Source of the DNA: a virus
Reading direction: 5' to 3' (one strand)
DNA: 64,000 nt
IMG/VR virus record: IMGVR_UViG_3300031746_000002
Location: 1 to 64,000 of that record
Within the stretch, counting starts at the first letter, position 1, and each line of letters starts with the position of its first letter. The notes under the pieces are model-generated. The model was given only the letters and a program-made list of their open reading frames with translations, did no database searches and had not been told where the DNA came from. Shown here piece by piece: positions 9,295 through 55,884 of this stretch. A program made the position numbers and the translations under genes.

Positions 9295-11010
9295 ATGCCA
9301 ACTTTTTCACCTAATTATCAAAAACCAGGAACATATGTCAAGATCAAAAGGCCGCAGCTACCAATAATACCCGCAAGTATATTTATACCCGCAGTAATTG
9401 GAATTGGAAGGCTTGATAAAGATTTAACGAGCGATGCTATTGTTAAAGGTTCAGCAAATGACAAAGCATTGATAATGGCAGGCATTGATGATATTACTTC
9501 AATAACTCAAGTCATAGATGAAAGCGGAAATATATACCGTGAAACTACCGATTATTTGCTTATCGACGACACACTTGTGCCAGATGCAAAAAAAGAAACT
9601 ATTGATTGGAGTCCAGTTATTGCAGCTACTAAAACTGGAATAAAAGTAGAAACTTTTGATGTCAGTGGGTTGACATTCAAAATGGCTATTGATGGTGGAA
9701 TTATGAAAACTCATACATTTGCTACACCATTTATTACTAAGACAGCTGCACAAATTGCTACAGACTTATTAAATACATTTACTACAGGTTGCACCATTGT
9801 TGAAGCTAGCGGTGGTGATGCTGGTAAAGTTAAAATCTCAACTATTTTAACAAATGGAGGAATAATTGAAATCGGTGATGGTACTGCAAATGCAATACTT
9901 GGTTTCAGTGTAGAAAAAATATATGGTTCAACAGAACCTGTAACTGGACAGAAATATTATGTAACTTTTGTAGCGCCAAAAAATGCTGATGATTATGAAC
10001 CAGCACTTTTTGCAGACCAGAATTTAATAGAAGATATTTATGGTGATAGCAATACTCTTTCTGGTGGTAATCCAACACATACTCTATCACTTGGTTCTAA
10101 AATCATGAAAGAGAACGGATCTGGTTTTGTATGGTGTTGTCAGGCAGATGTAAGTAATGGCGTTATAAGTGGGTTTGAAGCTGCTCTTGATAGGTTACGA
10201 ATAGTAACACCTTGGGTAATAGTTCCAATGTTACCAATATCTGACAGTTCATATCTTGAATTGATAGCATATTCAAAGGCTCACATTGTTGCAACAAGTA
10301 ATGAAATTGAAAATAAATATAGAACAATAATACTTGGAGGACAAAAGGATCTAGATGATAAAACTGATAAGAGTAGCAGTATCAGTTCATATTTAGATAT
10401 TTTTGCTGCATTAACTAGTGCAAGGATTCCATATATTGTTTCTTCTAAATGTCAAAGATTAGTTGGTGATACATTGATAGACCTTGATGGTTGCTATCTA
10501 GCAGCAGCAGTTGCTGGAGTTGCAACAAATCCTAACTATGATGCTGGTGAACCATTATCAGGTAAATCGATAGTTGGTTTTACAGATGTAAGTAGCAGCA
10601 TTTATTTAAATTCAGAATTAAATTATCTTGCTCAATATGGTGGAATGATAATTGAAAAAGATGGAATCAGTTTTACCATTCGACATGCACTAACTACAGA
10701 TACAACAAATGCTGGTACGCAAGAATTTAAGGTTACAAAAATTCAAGACTATGTAGCTGATACAGTTAGGACTGCATTAAATAAAGCATTTGTTAATACA
10801 AGAAATACTGGCGGTCCAACATATGCATCGATGAAAACTATGATAGAAATGTTGTTAGGTTCTATGATGCCTCATATCATTGTTGATAAACAAAACATCG
10901 ATGCGAAACAAAATTCAATAGAACCTAGACAAATTGATGTAAGATTTGGGATTAAACCTACATGGGACACAAATTGGATATATGTAGAGTTTGGAGTAAT
11001 TATGGGGTAA
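9295..11010 (+). CDS. Contractile tail sheath protein
   Basis: The 571-residue protein has hallmarks of phage sheath subunits: an N-terminal YQKPGTYVKIKRP strand, a large middle domain including WVIVPMLPISDSSYLELI, and a conserved C-terminal segment (PRQIDVRFGIKPTWDTNWIY) that links neighbouring subunits. Length fits the family. It is followed by tube, chaperone and tape-measure genes in the usual order. The sheath surrounds the inner tube and contracts to drive it through the host envelope. The AAAGGAGG site is strong, as expected for a protein made in hundreds of copies. Confidence 0.9.
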   Translation: MPTFSPNYQKPGTYVKIKRPQLPIIPASIFIPAVIGIGRLDKDLTSDAIVKGSANDKALIMAGIDDITSITQVIDESGNIYRETTDYLLIDDTLVPDAKKETIDWSPVIAATKTGIKVETFDVSGLTFKMAIDGGIMKTHTFATPFITKTAAQIATDLLNTFTTGCTIVEASGGDAGKVKISTILTNGGIIEIGDGTANAILGFSVEKIYGSTEPVTGQKYYVTFVAPKNADDYEPALFADQNLIEDIYGDSNTLSGGNPTHTLSLGSKIMKENGSGFVWCCQADVSNGVISGFEAALDRLRIVTPWVIVPMLPISDSSYLELIAYSKAHIVATSNEIENKYRTIILGGQKDLDDKTDKSSSISSYLDIFAALTSARIPYIVSSKCQRLVGDTLIDLDGCYLAAAVAGVATNPNYDAGEPLSGKSIVGFTDVSSSIYLNSELNYLAQYGGMIIEKDGISFTIRHALTTDTTNAGTQEFKVTKIQDYVADTVRTALNKAFVNTRNTGGPTYASMKTMIEMLLGSMMPHIIVDKQNIDAKQNSIEPRQIDVRFGIKPTWDTNWIYVEFGVIMG

Positions 11011-19742: not shown

Positions 19743-20173
19743 AAGATGTTAAACTTTTAGGAACTGCTACTAATAAATATTATGGTGACAGAAATGATAT
19801 TAGTATAAATACAGATAAAGATTTTGATATTTTGCAATTTAAAGACAAAGTGAGGCAATGCGCTGTTAAAATATTGTTAACACATTTAGGCTCACATAGT
19901 ATATTTATAGGATATGGTTCTGATTTAATTAATTTGATTAGATCAAGATTAGATCAATATTTACCACCAGCAATACGCGATGCAATTATTTATTCATTGA
20001 CATATTTAAAATATACAGAAGAAAGTGTATTACCTATAGAGCGATTAGATTCAGTTTTAAATATTATAATACAACAAGCAGAAGATGATCCGAGAGTTAT
20101 AAATGTACTTATAACTTTAAAACTAGTCAACGGTGATATACTTGATGTATCAATCAAAGGAGTGGGAATATGA
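19739..20173 (+). CDS. Baseplate wedge protein, gp25/gpW-like
   Basis: The 144-residue protein has the size and organisation of the gp25-like family: a flexible N-terminus, the helix LQFKDKVRQCAVKILLTHLGSHSIF, IGYGSDL, and a C-terminal beta segment (VINVLITLKLVNGDILDVSI). T4 gp25 forms part of the wedge core and sheath-initiation site. Overlap with the upstream gene and with the J-like gene downstream matches the usual gp25-gp6/J order. Confidence comes from combined pattern and synteny. Confidence 0.75.
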   Translation: MKDVKLLGTATNKYYGDRNDISINTDKDFDILQFKDKVRQCAVKILLTHLGSHSIFIGYGSDLINLIRSRLDQYLPPAIRDAIIYSLTYLKYTEESVLPIERLDSVLNIIIQQAEDDPRVINVLITLKLVNGDILDVSIKGVGI

Positions 20174-48904: not shown

Positions 48905-49637
48905 TCTACAAGAAAAACGATTAGGTAAAATAAAATTTAATCTTTTAAAGAACTGTACCATTTGTAAAGGTACTGGTATTACAAAAGATGAACATACATG
49001 TATATGTTTACTTAACTATGAAAAATATGTGCATTATGATTTTGCTGGTATTGAAAAAGAATACTGGGAATTAACATTGGAAAAAGATTGGATAGGAGAT
49101 AAGGTAGCAAAAAAATATACACAACTTTATATAAAGCATTTGGTTAAAGCTTATGAGAATGGTTTAGGTATTATTTATCTTGGTAAAAATGGTGTTGGTA
49201 AAACAATGTTATCTAATGTTGTATTGAAAGAAGCATCAGACAAAAATTATAGTGTTAGAAATATTACTTTGGAAGAGTTATTAAAATTAATCAAAACTTC
49301 ATTTGAGTCTTCAGATGCAAAAGATGAATATGAAAAAATAAAACAAATGGATTTTATTTGCCTTGACAATGTAGGGTTAGAATATAAACCAAAAGACTTT
49401 GGAGTTTTTACTGTAGCTGAGATGGACGTATTAATAAGGTATAGACGACGTAATCTTTTACCAATTATTATAACTTCAAATTTAACAAGTAAAGAAGAAT
49501 TCATGGAAAATTATGGTTCATCTATTTTAAGTCTATTAATTTCTGCTTCAAAATTTATTATTGTTCAAGGCGAAGATTACAGATTAAAACAAGGTGAAGA
49601 CTGGGAAAATAAATTAAAAGGAATAAGCGGTGAATGA
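48897..49637 (+). CDS. dnaC: DnaC/IstB-type helicase loader ATPase
   Basis: The 246-residue protein has an N-terminal zinc site (CTICKGTG at C20/C23; CIC at C35/C37) followed by an AAA+ core. Walker A is GKNGVGKT (residues 96-103), Walker B is MDFICLDNVGLEY, and LPIIITSNLTSKEEF fits sensor 1. Such loaders deliver the replicative helicase to the origin. Both neighbours match: an initiator-like gene upstream, and the DnaB-type helicase 8 nt inside its end. Confidence 0.85.
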   Translation: MDNLQEKRLGKIKFNLLKNCTICKGTGITKDEHTCICLLNYEKYVHYDFAGIEKEYWELTLEKDWIGDKVAKKYTQLYIKHLVKAYENGLGIIYLGKNGVGKTMLSNVVLKEASDKNYSVRNITLEELLKLIKTSFESSDAKDEYEKIKQMDFICLDNVGLEYKPKDFGVFTVAEMDVLIRYRRRNLLPIIITSNLTSKEEFMENYGSSILSLLISASKFIIVQGEDYRLKQGEDWENKLKGISGE

Positions 49638-51057
49638 AATAACTATCCAACGAAAATTACTTAAATTAATGCTTCTTAGTAAAGAAGTTACTTCAGAAGC
49701 AAGTAAACGTTTAGCTTCAAAAATGTTTACATCAGAATATGCTAAATGGTTTTATGAAAAGACAACAGAATATTTTATTAGATTTGGATCATTGCCTACA
49801 CTTAAAATTTTAATGGATATTTTAAAGAGGCATACTAACAATGAAAAAATAGTTGAAGAACATAGATTATTTTTAAAACAAATTAAAGTTGAAGAAGTAA
49901 AAGCAAAAGAAGCAAATTATTATATTGAAACTATTAATGAGACATATACTAAGTTAGAAGCTTATAATATTCTACAAAGTGCTGTAGTTGATATGGAAAA
50001 ACCTGGTTCTAATATATTTACTGGAATTGAAAACTTACAATTGAAGTTAGGACAGTTAAGTTATGCTACATCACCAACACCAGTTCAAAGAATAGAAGTA
50101 GTTAGTGGATTATTGGAAAGACTTAAACTATATGAGGATTTTAGGTATGATGCAGAAGGAGTAACAACGGGTTTAACAGAGCTTGATAATCATATAGGTG
50201 GATTTCATAAGGGAGAGCTTGTAATCATCATTGGGGGGACGGGTGAAGGTAAATCCATAATCCTATTGAATTGTGCGACTGCTGCGTATCTAGACGCACA
50301 CAGTGTTATCTATATAACAATGGAAATGAGTGAAAATGATGTACTTATACGATATCATTCAAGAATATCAGGTTTGAACCATAATAAAATAAGGAAACAT
50401 AAACTTGACCCATTTGAAGAACGGGAACTTTATTCTAAAATTATTACTAATACTTTAAAAAAACCAGACAGAGAAAAATTTAAAAAATGGTTTGCTAGTC
50501 AATCATTGAAAAAAATAACTGTAGATGAACTATATGCAGCAGTAGCCAAAAATTTTAAATTTAAAGACAGTAGGCTTTATTTCTTAGATTTAATGAAAGA
50601 TTGCACTATTGAAAAAATAGAAATTGAAATTAAACAACTTATGAGAGGTCATACTTATGATGCAATTTATTTAGACCATCTTAACACAATAGAAACATCA
50701 CATAAATCAAATAATTGGGTTAGGGATATAGGTATCATAGCACGTAGATTAAAGAACCTTGCTAAAGAACTTAATGTACCTATAATAATTCCTTGTCAAA
50801 TGGTTTCAAAAAAAGAAGGTGAAGAAATAACAGCTGAAGATACAAAGTATGCAAAAGCTGTTGCAGAAAATGCTGATTGGGTTATAGGATTTAAACAATC
50901 TGAAGAAGATAAGATGACAGGTATAATTAAACTTGAATTAGCAAAGCATAGACATGCAGAAAAGATTATAATAAAAGCTAGAGAGAATTTTAATAAGATG
51001 CGAATCAGTGATTTTGAGGATAAAAATGGCATCACTATTAAAAAAGACAACATGTGA
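49630..51057 (+). CDS. dnaB: DnaB-type replicative helicase
   Basis: The 475-residue enzyme has an N-terminal helical part (IQRKLLKLMLLSKEVTSEASKRL). The RecA-like core begins TTGLTELDNHIGGFHKGELVIIIGGTGEGKS (Walker A near residue 204), with YITMEMSENDVLIRYHSRISGL, YDAIYLDHL (Walker B) and a C-terminal VPIIIPCQM motif. It would unwind the fork in the 5'-3' direction. The loader overlaps its start; primase follows 1.2 kb downstream. Length fits the family. Confidence 0.85.
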   Translation: MNEITIQRKLLKLMLLSKEVTSEASKRLASKMFTSEYAKWFYEKTTEYFIRFGSLPTLKILMDILKRHTNNEKIVEEHRLFLKQIKVEEVKAKEANYYIETINETYTKLEAYNILQSAVVDMEKPGSNIFTGIENLQLKLGQLSYATSPTPVQRIEVVSGLLERLKLYEDFRYDAEGVTTGLTELDNHIGGFHKGELVIIIGGTGEGKSIILLNCATAAYLDAHSVIYITMEMSENDVLIRYHSRISGLNHNKIRKHKLDPFEERELYSKIITNTLKKPDREKFKKWFASQSLKKITVDELYAAVAKNFKFKDSRLYFLDLMKDCTIEKIEIEIKQLMRGHTYDAIYLDHLNTIETSHKSNNWVRDIGIIARRLKNLAKELNVPIIIPCQMVSKKEGEEITAEDTKYAKAVAENADWVIGFKQSEEDKMTGIIKLELAKHRHAEKIIIKARENFNKMRISDFEDKNGITIKKDNM

Positions 51058-51265
51058 TATTGGCGAAGAAGATGAAGAAGTTTGTTTAGAACATAAAACT
51101 TCTAATCTAAGCGGATCAAAAATGCCTTGGCACAGAGATGGAAAATTATTTTGTGAAGGTTGTGGAAAAGGAGTTAGTTCAGTTTCAGTAGTTATTGAGG
51201 GGGCATTTTGCGATACTTGTATTATAGGTGTAATGAATAAAAGGATTATAAAGAATAAAAAATGA
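51026..51265 (+). CDS. 79-residue zinc-ribbon-like protein
   Basis: ATG 51026 follows TTTTGAGGATAAAA and is preferred to the upstream in-frame ATG 51008. The product has CLEH, CEGCGKG and CDTC, which together give a probable zinc ribbon over residues 22-66. It overlaps the helicase end by 32 nt and the next gene by 4 nt. A small DNA- or protein-binding replication accessory is likely; no family is recognised. Confidence 0.5.
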   Translation: MASLLKKTTCDIGEEDEEVCLEHKTSNLSGSKMPWHRDGKLFCEGCGKGVSSVSVVIEGAFCDTCIIGVMNKRIIKNKK

Positions 51266-51627
51266 AAATACGACATTTACTTTTAGATTTTGAAGGAATA
51301 CAAAAAAATCTTAAATTACTTGATGACCCTAATAAGCTTGCTATAGTAATGATAAGAGCAGCTGAAGTGGCTTCAATGACAGCATTAAGCTGGAGCTTTC
51401 AAAAATATTTACCACAAGGTTTAACTGTTACTGTGTATTTAGCTGAAAGCCATTTATTAATATCAACAACACCAGAAAATAAAGAATGTAATATTGATGT
51501 AAGCGTTTGCAAAGAATCAAGTGATTTAGAAGCAGTAGAACAATATTTCAAAAAATTATTTAAACCAAAAAATATTATTAAGAATTGTATTGAACGTGGT
51601 TCTAAAAATATAGAAATAAAAGGATGA
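51262..51627 (+). CDS. Unknown 121-residue protein
   Basis: The protein (MKIRHLLLDFEGIQKNLKLLDDPNKLAIVMIRA...) is mixed alpha/beta, with TALSWSFQKYLPQGLTVTVYLAESHLLISTTP in the middle and a positively charged C-terminus. It overlaps the preceding zinc-ribbon gene by 4 nt and is followed by a structured intergenic element. No family is recognised. Confidence 0.5.
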   Translation: MKIRHLLLDFEGIQKNLKLLDDPNKLAIVMIRAAEVASMTALSWSFQKYLPQGLTVTVYLAESHLLISTTPENKECNIDVSVCKESSDLEAVEQYFKKLFKPKNIIKNCIERGSKNIEIKG

Positions 51628-52230: not shown

Positions 52231-53241
52231 ATGCAAATTGATGTTAAAGAAATTTTAGATAAGTATAGTATTGAAATAACAGGTGAAACGCGAGATGAAT
52301 ATATTTGTGGATGCCCATTTCATGAAGATAAAACACCTTCATTTTCAATAAATAAAGAAACAGGTTTATGGATATGTTTTACATGTAATTCTTTAGGCTT
52401 AGAAGAAGGTAGTGGTAACTTTGTTAAATTAGTAATGTTATTAGAAAGTTGTTCATATGAAAGTGCAAAGAAAATAATATATAAGAATGAAGATGCAGAA
52501 ACAGTAGTAGAACGATTAACAAAGAAAATAAATAATGTTATTAACAAGGAGCATGAAGTAATAATAAAGAATTTAGATATAAAGATTGAATTACCACAAG
52601 AGTTTGAACTTTTTACTGATATAAAACAATGTCCCAAATATTTATTAAATAGATTACATTGGAAAACGATAACACATTTTAAATTAGGTATTTGCAGAGA
52701 AGGATATTATAAGAACAGAATTATTATTCCAATATATCATAATGAAGAAATTGTTGGTTTCCAAGCAAGATGGATAGGTAATGCTGATGAAGCTGAAGTA
52801 AAAAGATATTTATTTGCTTCAGGGTTTGTAACAAATAATTACTTATTTAATTATGATGGGGTTAAAGATTGTAAAGCACTTATACTTGTTGAAGGTTCTA
52901 TAAACGTTATGAGTATGCGGGAAAAGAATTTTAGTGCTGTTGCAGCATTCAGTGCTAAAGACTTAAGTATAAGACAATTAAAATTATTAGTTGATCTCGG
53001 TTTAGATGAATTAATAATCTGTTTTGATAATGATAGAAATAATGTTGGTCAAACTTCTGCTAAAAGGAATATGAAAAAATTAAGAAATTATTTCGATGTT
53101 TCAATAATGTCATTACCATTAGAAAAAGATCCAAATGATTTAGATGAACAGCAATTGAAAGCAATTTATAATTCAAGATATTATGAAAAGAGAACTTTAT
53201 GGCTAAAATCGTTGATTATGGCAAACTCTTCAGAAGAGTAA
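52231..53241 (+). CDS. dnaG: DnaG-type DNA primase
   Basis: The 336-residue enzyme has a CHC2 zinc finger (C28-P-F-H31 with C49-FT-C52) and the segment HEDKTPSFSI typical of primases. A TOPRIM domain follows at about residues 220-290, with ILVEGSINVMSM and IICFDNDRNN, supplying the acidic metal site. No C-terminal helicase-binding domain is visible, which explains the short length. It makes RNA primers for the phage fork. It overlaps the nuclease gene by 43 nt. Confidence 0.85.
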   Translation: MQIDVKEILDKYSIEITGETRDEYICGCPFHEDKTPSFSINKETGLWICFTCNSLGLEEGSGNFVKLVMLLESCSYESAKKIIYKNEDAETVVERLTKKINNVINKEHEVIIKNLDIKIELPQEFELFTDIKQCPKYLLNRLHWKTITHFKLGICREGYYKNRIIIPIYHNEEIVGFQARWIGNADEAEVKRYLFASGFVTNNYLFNYDGVKDCKALILVEGSINVMSMREKNFSAVAAFSAKDLSIRQLKLLVDLGLDELIICFDNDRNNVGQTSAKRNMKKLRNYFDVSIMSLPLEKDPNDLDEQQLKAIYNSRYYEKRTLWLKSLIMANSSEE

Positions 53242-53984
53242 GACCTTCTGTTAGTACTTCATCTTTAGGTAGATACTTTGCTTGTCCAGCATCATATTAC
53301 AAACAATATGTACTTCGAGAAGAATTTGCAGAAGAGAAAGGAATACCAGCTATCAGAGGCATTGCTATACATAAATGTCTTGAAGATTTTTATAATTCAG
53401 GAAACTTCGATAGACAAAAGCTTATATCTAGTTGGAAAGAAACATTTGAATATGTGATGAAAAAGGAAAAAGTAGTTATTCCTGAAAATGAACAGAAGAA
53501 AATATTAACTGAAGGTTATCAAATGTTAAATTCATTTTATAATGAACAGGAAAGAGATGGATTACTTAAAAAGCCTTTATTCAATGAAAAATATTTAAAG
53601 ACTGTTTATAGGGGTGTAGTTATCAAGGCTAAAGTTGATATGATTATCAACTGGAAAGATGAAATGTATATCTATGATTTTAAAACAAACTGGCATAAGT
53701 TTGGTAATAAAGAGCTTAATGAAAACCTCCAAGCTCATTTAAATTTATGGTTGTATAAAGCTACATATGGAAAAGAAGCTAAATTTTGTTTTCATTTTAT
53801 TAGATTAAAACAAAGACAATTTATAGAAAAATTAAATGAAAAATTATTATTAGATGTAATTGATAAGTTATTAAATGCTCATATAGATAACAATTTTCCA
53901 ATTGAACCAACAGACTGTAAATACTGTATGTATCAAAGCAGATGCGAACGTTTTACTAAACAAAAAACTATTAAAATCTGCTGA
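53199..53984 (+). CDS. Cas4/RecB-type exonuclease with iron-sulphur site
   Basis: The 261-residue protein has the RecB-family PD-(D/E)XK layout: STSSLGRYFACPASYYKQY, RGIAIHKCLEDFY, KAKVDMIINWKDEMYIYDFKTNW (D then D-x-K), and QAHLNLWLYKA (QhxxY-like). The C-terminal CKYCMYQSRC with the early C of FACPAS gives a likely 4Fe-4S cluster as in Cas4 and AddB-type nucleases. It probably processes DNA ends for recombination-driven replication. No other CRISPR gene or array is present. Confidence 0.8.
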   Translation: MAKIVDYGKLFRRVRPSVSTSSLGRYFACPASYYKQYVLREEFAEEKGIPAIRGIAIHKCLEDFYNSGNFDRQKLISSWKETFEYVMKKEKVVIPENEQKKILTEGYQMLNSFYNEQERDGLLKKPLFNEKYLKTVYRGVVIKAKVDMIINWKDEMYIYDFKTNWHKFGNKELNENLQAHLNLWLYKATYGKEAKFCFHFIRLKQRQFIEKLNEKLLLDVIDKLLNAHIDNNFPIEPTDCKYCMYQSRCERFTKQKTIKIC

Positions 53985-54014: not shown

Positions 54015-54045
54015 TTGAAAGGAAATAATAAAGGAGGTGAAAAAG

Positions 54046-54309
54046 ATGGCAAGGGTAAGCGGAGCAGGCAAGGGAAACAAACCAGAAAAGGTTGAGATGG
54101 TCCTTATGAAATCAAAAGTTTACAGGCTAGTTAAAGGTGAGCTTAAGATGAGGATATCTGCTGCATGTTTTGAAATAATCTCAGCAAGAGTTATAACAAT
54201 GATAAAACAAGCTGCTGAGCAAACAAAGGTAGATAAAAGGGAAACTATCAAACCAAGGGATTTTGATGCAGCTGCAAGGGCTGCAGTAGCAGGAGAAAGT
54301 AAAGAGTAA
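54046..54309 (+). CDS. Histone-fold protein
   Basis: ATG 54046 is set by AAGGAGGTGAAAAAG, giving 87 residues. After a basic tail (MARVSGAGKGNKPEK), a short helix (SKVYRLVKG, 23-31) precedes RISAACFEIISARVITMIKQAAEQT (37-60) and KRETIKPRDFDAAARA (64-79). The R-x-TIK-x-x-D block matches the loop-2/helix-3 region of archaeal and eukaryotic histones, and RIS lines up with RVS in archaeal histones; the middle helix is about one turn shorter. It would bend or wrap DNA as a dimer. Family match is by eye and needs modelling. Confidence 0.65.
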   Translation: MARVSGAGKGNKPEKVEMVLMKSKVYRLVKGELKMRISAACFEIISARVITMIKQAAEQTKVDKRETIKPRDFDAAARAAVAGESKE

Positions 54310-54341
54310 ATAGAGGAACAACGAAAAGGAGGAAAGTAAGT

Positions 54342-54779
54342 ATGAGTATTCAGGCTGATTTAAAGAAGTTAAGGGAAAAGAAGAAAGAGATTGCGGCAAA
54401 AATTACAAAGTTATTTGAAGAAAGAGGAGCAAATAACAAAAAGATTGCCGAACTCAAAGCAGAAGCATCAAAGGAAAAGAAAGCAGCAGCAAAGGAAGCA
54501 AAGGAAACAAAAGCAGAAAAGAAAGAAAAGAAAGTTGAAAAGAAAGAAGCAAAGAAAGAGACAAAGAAAGAGGCAAAGAAAGAGGCAAAGAAAGAAGAAA
54601 AGAAAGAAGAAAAGAAAGAAACAAAGAAAGAGGCAAAGAAAGAAGTTAAGCCAGAAAAAACAAAAGAGAAAACAAAGCCAGTAGACCCAGATGATGAAGA
54701 TGACAAAAAAGCACCAGCGGAAAAAGAAGAAAAGAAAGACGAAAAAAAGAAAACTGCTGATGAAGGCGATGACGAATAA
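54342..54779 (+). CDS. Lys/Glu/Ala-repeat charged protein paired with histone-fold gene
   Basis: The 145-residue protein starts with a coiled-coil-like helix (residues 5-45), then a long KKEA/KKET/KKEE repeat tract (about 58-101). It ends with PVDPDDEDDKK and an acidic ADEGDDE tail. Composition recalls histone H1-type or nucleolin-like tails, but charge is nearly balanced, which also fits a rigid single-alpha-helix rod. It follows the histone-fold gene by 32 nt with an AAAGGAGG site and ends at a terminator, so the two form one unit. Confidence 0.6.
   Translation: MSIQADLKKLREKKKEIAAKITKLFEERGANNKKIAELKAEASKEKKAAAKEAKETKAEKKEKKVEKKEAKKETKKEAKKEAKKEEKKEEKKETKKEAKKEVKPEKTKEKTKPVDPDDEDDKKAPAEKEEKKDEKKKTADEGDDE
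54538..54650 (+). repeat. 12-nt-based AAAGAAAG coding repeats
   Basis: Units of about 12 nt on the pattern AAGAAAGAGGCA (Lys-Lys-Glu-Ala/Thr/Glu) run through the middle of the charged protein. Copies are near-identical, so slippage could change the length of the tract in frame. Confidence 0.85.
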
Positions 54780-54807
54780 ACTTTAAATTATCCGGGTAAT
54801 TTAAATG

Positions 54808-54845
54808 GGGTGGAGTAGCTTAAACCCTACTCCACCCATTTTTTC
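54808..54845 (+). terminator. Strong intrinsic terminator after histone-fold unit
   Basis: GGGTGGAGTAG (54808-54818) pairs perfectly with CTACTCCACCC (54827-54837), with an 8-nt loop, followed by ATTTTTTC. This is a textbook rho-independent terminator. Just upstream, TTTAAATTA (54782-54790) and TAATTTAAA (54797-54805) form a second stem with a TCCGGG loop. Confidence 0.9.
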
Positions 54846-54859
54846 AAAGGAAAACTAAC

Positions 54860-55351
54860 ATGAAAGATAACAGACAAAACGTTCACGAATTCTATATTGG
54901 TTTAGCAAAACAAATAGCTTCAAGGGGAACATGCTTACGCAGGCAGATAGGAGCTGTTTTAATTAAAGATGGTATTATATTAGCAACAGGATATAATGGA
55001 CCGCCATCAGGGTTAGCACACTGCGATAAATGTTTTCGCATAACTAATAATATCCAAAGCTCAACACGTTTAGAATTTTGTAGAGCAGTACATGCTGAAG
55101 AAAATGTATTAATTCAATGTGCTATAAAGCAGACAAATCCCACTGGTGGAATTTTATATTGCACACATTCTCCTTGTGTTACTTGTGCAAAAAGTATTAT
55201 TCAAGCTAAAATCAGTGCTATTATATATGATGAAATTTATCCAGATGAATTGACTCAGCAAATGATAGGAGAGTCTTCTGTATTATTTTATCAAGTTAAA
55301 ACTCCTAACTTAGATACTTTATTAAAACTTAAAGGACAAACATTAATATGA
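54860..55351 (+). CDS. dCMP deaminase
   Basis: The 163-residue protein has the zinc-deaminase signature: AVHAEENV (His and catalytic Glu) and SPCVTCAKS. An extra HCDKC lies near residue 55, as in T4-type dCMP deaminases with a second zinc. It would convert dCMP to dUMP for thymidylate synthesis. It is first in the unit after the terminator, with an AAAGGAAAAC site, and overlaps the kinase gene by 4 nt. Confidence 0.85.
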   Translation: MKDNRQNVHEFYIGLAKQIASRGTCLRRQIGAVLIKDGIILATGYNGPPSGLAHCDKCFRITNNIQSSTRLEFCRAVHAEENVLIQCAIKQTNPTGGILYCTHSPCVTCAKSIIQAKISAIIYDEIYPDELTQQMIGESSVLFYQVKTPNLDTLLKLKGQTLI

Positions 55352-55884
55352 TAATCATTGTTGAAGGAATAGATGGTACTGGCAAAACTTATTTTTGTAA
55401 ATATATAGCAAAAAAATATGGCTTTAAATATATTCATGCACCAAAACCAAAGAAACCTTTCGATGAATTTGCTAAAACAGTTACTGCTAAGTACAAAAAA
55501 TTAATCAAAGATAATTTAAAAAAATATGTTATTTTTGATAGATCATTTTATAGTGAATATGCTTATAATTATAATAGGACACATAAATACATAGAGCAAT
55601 TTGAAAAATTATTAAATGTTAATTACACTGTTATATTATTTACTCTATCTCATTTAGGTATCAGGCGAACATTTAATAAATATATTGCTAATCATCAAGC
55701 TTTTGATAATCAAAATAAGTTTGCAAGAAAAGTAGCAGTACAACAGCGATATATTTATATTTTGGGAAAATCAAGACTTGCAAGTAAATACATAATAAAT
55801 ATTCCAGACACGCTTGATAAACTTGGTACAGGATATAAAAAAGCACAGAATACAGCTTTAAGAATTATTGAGCATATAATATGA
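55348..55884 (+). CDS. Thymidylate-kinase-like dNMP kinase
   Basis: The 178-residue protein starts MIIIVEGIDGTGKTYF, the P-loop of thymidylate kinases, followed by VIFDRSFYSEYAYN (the DR-Y motif) and a LID-like region with RRTFNKYIANH. It would phosphorylate dTMP or another dNMP. The short length is common for phage deoxynucleotide kinases. Overlaps of 4 nt on both sides couple it to the deaminase and the radical-SAM gene. Confidence 0.8.
   Translation: MIIIVEGIDGTGKTYFCKYIAKKYGFKYIHAPKPKKPFDEFAKTVTAKYKKLIKDNLKKYVIFDRSFYSEYAYNYNRTHKYIEQFEKLLNVNYTVILFTLSHLGIRRTFNKYIANHQAFDNQNKFARKVAVQQRYIYILGKSRLASKYIINIPDTLDKLGTGYKKAQNTALRIIEHII

Follow-up and report, generated by a model that had tools for sequence, protein, structure and literature searches.

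Bacterial histones have been accepted only recently, and to our knowledge phage histones are known from a single class, which differs in architecture from the protein considered here. The histones of Marseilleviridae and Medusavirus are relatives of the eukaryotic core histones, often occurring as doublets, and build nucleosomes. The alpha3 histones are marked by an RxTxxxxD motif, a middle helix that is 4–5 residues shorter than in nucleosomal histones, and a truncated third helix of 3–4 residues (PMC11390915). Among them HBb (Bd0055; PDB 8cmp, 8fvx, 9ezz and 9f0e) is a bacterial dimer histone, a type that binds and bends DNA as a dimer and is marked by RKTxxxD and helix-1 lysines. The FtF histones, such as HTkC (9f2c) and HLp (9qt0–9qt2), have a homologous fold; the residues of their toroidal face-to-face tetramer are R48 and N52 (roles as given in PMC11390915), and the HLp tetramer wraps approximately 60 bp of DNA (PMC12701072). 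The published 'phage histones' (Schwab et al. 2024), which are alpha3-superfamily histones of tailed phages, have no RxTxxxD motif and possess at their C-terminus a helical domain for tetramerisation, which is thought to bridge DNA (PMC11390915). What is new at the locus described below is that a phage encodes an HBb-type histone; phage histones as such are already described (PMC11390915), though of the other type.

Sequence and predicted fold of the phage histone

The window, by which we mean the whole 64-kb stretch of DNA analysed, forms the beginning of a virus record of 138.9 kb and has a G+C content of 30.7%. The source virus is a contractile-tailed phage, with a tail sheath gene at 9295 (phrog_2839, E=2e-25) and a baseplate wedge/J protein gene at 20170. 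On the plus strand an open reading frame of 87 codons extends from an ATG at 54046 to a stop ending at 54309 (coding 54046–54306), and is followed by one of 145 codons (54342–54779), both as initially described. In phmmer searches of the PDB the 87-aa protein matches HBb of Bdellovibrio (E=4e-4) and HTkC (9f2c; E=0.015). A cellular alpha3 profile, made from 8 of the 11 cellular sequences with the window protein left out, gives it a score of 54 bits (E about 3e-15), whereas among 5000 shuffles the highest score is 15 bits. The 11 cellular loci, one from Aenigmatarchaeota and the rest from Bdellovibrionota or from MAGs titled only Proteobacteria, match it at 34–40% identity, and over cellular histones as a whole identity ranges from 23 to 40%. 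AlphaFold2, given a 16-row alignment, predicts helices at 14–32, 39–62 and 70–84 with a mean pLDDT of 81 and core blocks of at least 90, and the top five PDB matches of this model in Foldseek are all HBb (probability 1.00, rmsd 1.3–2.2 Å). Among solved structures, HBb and HTkC are the nearest to it in both sequence and fold. A single-sequence AlphaFold model consisting of one long helix was discarded. Judged by profile score, predicted structure and structural matches, the protein is a true histone fold, bearing out the three-helix pattern originally proposed.

Residues S23, K24, V25, K30, R65, T67 and D72 are invariant in the alignment of the window protein with the cellular alpha3 histones, and R65-E-T67....D72 corresponds to the conserved histone loop motif RxTxxxxD, so that the L2-loop assignment of the initial annotation stands. 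Its comparison with archaeal nucleosomal histones was misplaced: the short middle helix and RxTxxxxD are those of the alpha3 type, and in lacking both FtF residues the protein resembles the dimeric DNA-bender HBb. Helix 2 aligns without gaps to that of HBb, whereas alignment to HmvA (MJ1647) requires a 4-residue insertion, and by its sequence the window histone groups with bacterial and archaeal alpha3 histones (HBb, HTkC) and not with the nucleosomal archaeal histones.

The likeness to HBb comprises approximately 29% identity over the fold, an equally short middle helix, RxTxxxxD, a helix-1 SKV..(L/V)(I/V)K signature with its lysines present, and the absence of R48 and N52 from both proteins, positions 48 and 52 being Q59 and D63 in the window histone and S and D in HBb. 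The differences are that the window histone is phage-encoded, has a basic N-terminal tail of about 16 residues, carries an acidic residue (E66) instead of K at position 55, giving RET in place of RKT, and is followed by a gene for a Lys/Glu-rich protein. The tail (residues 1–16) has a net charge of +3, so of the basic tail noted at first the positive charge remains, at a mild level. Basic N-tails are also common among bacterial FtF members, and the window histone is 30% identical to the HTkC fragment; however, with Q59 and D63 in place of R48 and N52 a face-to-face tetramer is not predicted from its sequence, and wrapping of DNA as in a nucleosome should not be assumed by default. This residue test is not decisive, as HTkC has E at position 52 and yet forms a tetramer.

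A further difference from HBb lies at the C-terminus, where 15 residues follow D72 and helix 3 is predicted to span some 15 residues (70–84); block pLDDT declines from 84 to 57 at the end of this helix. If real, this long helix deviates from the definition of the alpha3 family, and the quaternary structure may differ as a consequence. The 15 residues beyond the motif do not amount to a C-terminal domain, and this, together with the presence of RxTxxxxD, separates the window histone from the class of Schwab et al. With the Marseilleviridae and Medusavirus histones it shares a virus-encoded histone fold, although the BFVD matches of its model to them are weak (E 0.015 or worse).

The histone gene, its neighbours and the Lys/Glu-rich protein

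The histone gene is preceded by a ribosome-binding site (54027–54045, plus strand; AAAGGAGGTGAAAAAG before the ATG at 54046) that matches all 10 bases of AAGGAGGTGA, the longest match among the 64 predicted window genes. It also has the highest G+C (0.399) and GC3 (0.308) of the 64, followed in GC3 by the gene for the Lys/Glu-rich (KE) protein (0.301), although its high G+C is partly due to amino-acid composition. The two genes are 32 bp apart and end at an intrinsic terminator (54808–54845, plus strand) made of an 11-bp stem (within 54808–54837) and a T-run (ATTTTTT); the region 54780–54850 folds at −25.4 kcal/mol (z = −4.6). The strong ribosome site, comparatively high G+C and terminator reported initially are thus all recovered. 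The proposal that the pair forms its own unit fits well at its downstream end, but the 61-nt gap between the end of the preceding exonuclease gene and the histone ATG holds no plus-strand promoter-like site from which such a unit would start.

The surrounding cluster, also on the plus strand, contains a DnaB-like replicative helicase (49630–51057; phrog_19, E=4e-62), a DNA primase (52231–53241; phrog_47, E=1e-49) and the upstream exonuclease (53199–53984; phrog_69, E=6e-18), which we infer to be PD-(D/E)XK-like. Downstream lie a dCMP/cytidine deaminase (54860–55351; PF00383, E=4e-19) and a thymidylate/deoxynucleoside kinase-like protein (55348–55884; PF02223, E=2e-6, barely above the cut-off), and a gene for Pol III alpha is found in the same region. 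The terminase large subunit gene is situated at record positions 80573–83491 (L003:1573–4491) and is interrupted by an intein-splicing domain/HNH endonuclease insert. A search of the 138.9-kb record, whose completeness is not stated and which may be a fragment, gives no match to an HU/IHF gene; an HU gene could lie outside this record. The phage also encodes an S-adenosylmethionine decarboxylase (window 51262–51627), an archease (record 110779–111222) and a protein with a LigD 3'-phosphoesterase domain (record 135710–137026).

The KE gene (54342–54779, plus strand) is a purine-rich tandem repeat with 12/36-bp periods and encodes a repetitive 145-aa protein with an acidic C-terminus, in which K makes up 35% and E 22% of the residues (51 K, 2 R, 32 E and 10 D; net +11). 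Its own overlapping frame aside, it is the most lysine-rich open reading frame of the 138.9-kb record. That overlapping frame (54391–54684, plus strand), Lys/Arg/Gln-rich and 97 aa in length (RKRQRKRQRK...), probably arises from the purine repeat as a by-product. The KE protein has no homologue that we could find and no family or domain match above curated cut-off; a match to chorismate mutase (E=0.023) was rejected, its score of 15 bits being below the cut-off of 69.55. As a long lysine-rich repeat chain adjoining a histone it resembles H1-like proteins such as AlgP and Hc1. However, linker histone H1 has a strongly basic K/A/P tail with few acidic residues, joined in eukaryotic members to a winged-helix domain. 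The KE protein, by contrast, sets 42 acidic residues against 53 basic ones, which makes it a balanced Lys/Glu polyampholyte; its end is acidic and no globular domain is recognised in it, and we do not retain the earlier likening of it to a linker-histone tail. Its adjacency to the histone gene is what points to a possible chromatin role.

Alpha3 histones in other viral contigs

Neither the window histone nor two cellular alpha3 histones match anything in tblastn searches of annotated phage genomes, which also contain no DNA-level relative of the window region. In IMG/VR the window protein likewise returns no relative, either as a single query or at the head of an alignment, and the deaminase and nuclease encoded next to it return none. 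Four IMG/VR contigs (L110–L113) that encode alpha3 histones, most of which have a short basic N-tail, were identified only by an alignment headed by an archaeal FtF histone, from which it follows that the other IMG/VR scans for the histone were of low sensitivity. In 43 genomes and records related through Pol III alpha, each searched over its whole length, a histone profile matches only the three cellular controls, so the histone is not general among phages with this Pol III alpha. Weak, partial and low-scoring histone matches in L007 and L003 were rejected, and phrog_20203 (E=0.015) is not confirmed as a histone family as the cellular alpha3 histones do not match it.

In L113, which represents an unrelated phage, the gene order is PD-(D/E)XK nuclease, histone, dCMP deaminase, Sak4, SSB and primase, which parallels the order exonuclease, histone, KE and dCMP deaminase in the window. 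The histones of the two are 34% identical and the deaminases 29%, at a G+C content of 62.6% in L113 compared with 30.7% in the window. The nucleases next to the histones agree in functional kind, but pairwise BLASTP detects no similarity between them, so the common gene order may reflect function and not descent. The histone gene lies between deoxynucleoside kinase and thymidylate kinase genes in L110 and L112, and is divergently adjacent to a DNA ligase gene in L111. All five viral alpha3 histones are thus located among replication or nucleotide genes, and none of the five records has an HU/IHF match. None of the five matches the phrog_2 terminase family either, and the viral status of L110, L111 and L113 therefore rests on the IMG/VR classification and on phage-type replication genes. 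In a tree of the histone fold, long branches leave the relationships unresolved and a single group of viral sequences is not supported.

Approximately 3 kb downstream of the histone, L110 (13219–13821) and L112 (12957–13583) encode H1-like proteins that are homologous to each other (58% identical). Each joins a lysine-rich tail (AKPKAKAKAK... and KKATKKAAKK...) to a globular domain of some 100 residues, which in one of them has a weak Mrr_N-like match. Three of the five viral histone loci have a lysine-rich open reading frame no more than about 3.3 kb from the histone, and 2 of the 85 other viral loci contain such a frame (Fisher p=0.0008, or 0.009 with the related L110/L112 pair collapsed), an association that is suggestive only because the control loci (median G+C 0.43) are less AT-rich than the window. 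A separate 91-aa Lys/Pro-rich frame in L110 (9345–9620, minus strand; MTKEKAKPKPRAKPKSKPKKKAEPKK...) divergently adjoins the histone gene and ends in a hydrophobic C-terminus that may act as a membrane anchor.

Possible roles of the histone and its neighbour

We consider it reasonably probable, from the homology and the predicted fold, that the window encodes a phage HBb-like dimeric alpha3 histone that serves inside the cell as an architectural protein of replicating phage DNA. The protein would homodimerise, and the dimer would contact the dsDNA backbone through K22, K24, R27 and K30 of helix 1 and R65 and T67 of the L2 loop, bending DNA without sequence preference, as HBb does. HBb-like bending is the most likely mode as the DNA-facing residues are conserved and the FtF interface residues absent. 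Probably abundant during genome replication, the histone would cover and organise new phage DNA, filling the niche that HU-like proteins occupy in other phages. The KE protein, probably co-transcribed with it, would be a plausible accessory, either as an electrostatic modulator or as a chaperone-like partner.

The strong ribosome site and the composition of the histone gene suggest an abundant product, as might be expected of a late virion protein that is packaged or ejected with the genome and compacts or shields DNA early in the next infection, and giant viruses such as Marseilleviridae do package virion DNA with histones (PMC11390915). However, the gene is situated among replication, recombination and nucleotide genes and not in a structural block, tens of kilobases from the tail sheath, baseplate and terminase genes, and the recognisable neighbours of the four other viral alpha3 histones are of the same kinds, so that an intracellular role is favoured. 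Terminase-packaged dsDNA heads are, moreover, normally free of histones, and we regard a virion protein as improbable. A regulator or an antagonist of host chromatin, which would heterodimerise with or displace a host alpha3 histone or act as a transcription switch, seems to us quite improbable: alpha3 histones are known from several bacterial phyla whose members could be phage hosts (PMC11390915), but an identity of only 23–40% to cellular histones speaks against the protein being a recent mimic of the host's own.

For the KE protein the balance is even between a partner of the histone and a functionally unrelated product (a charged linker, a scaffold or the outcome of repeat expansion) that merely has a transcript in common with it. 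The purine-rich tandem repeat could have expanded recently, the near-balanced charge is unlike that of H1 tails and there is no homologue to compare; against this, one terminator serves both genes across a 32-bp spacing, and lysine-rich frames recur at the viral histone loci, with the caveat given for AT content. An unrelated KE protein is compatible with the role proposed for the histone. A broader and rather doubtful extension is that some tailed-phage replication modules contain a two-part kit, in which an alpha3 core histone and a linker-like protein with many lysines (in the window phage the Lys/Glu-rich one, in L110 and L112 a globular domain with an H1-like tail) would jointly coat replicating DNA, replace HU and possibly screen the DNA from host nucleases.

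The recurrence of an HBb-type histone beside replication or nucleotide genes in unrelated phages, sometimes with lysine-rich partners, suggests that histones are used by some phages to coat their own DNA during copying; if this is true, phages would use histone-based DNA organisation in replication. As small phage proteins are easily expressed, a possible shielding of phage DNA from host defences by histones is directly testable. The viral alpha3 histones also add to the data on movement of histones between cells and viruses.

Several other observations were made in the course of these searches. Doublet histones, in which a single chain of about 130 aa contains two alpha3 folds, are present in Bacteriovoracaceae and related genomes (L012–L017, L019, L115–L117 and L119). 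The viral contig L111, one of those with an alpha3 histone, encodes a Ro60/TROVE protein with a vWA domain (672–2300). Two unnamed viral proteins in BFVD, A0A516M1G1 (99 aa) and A0A516LIY4 (139 aa), match the model of the window histone at 29% identity over about 52 residues and an rmsd of 1.2–1.3 Å and are possibly further phage histones.
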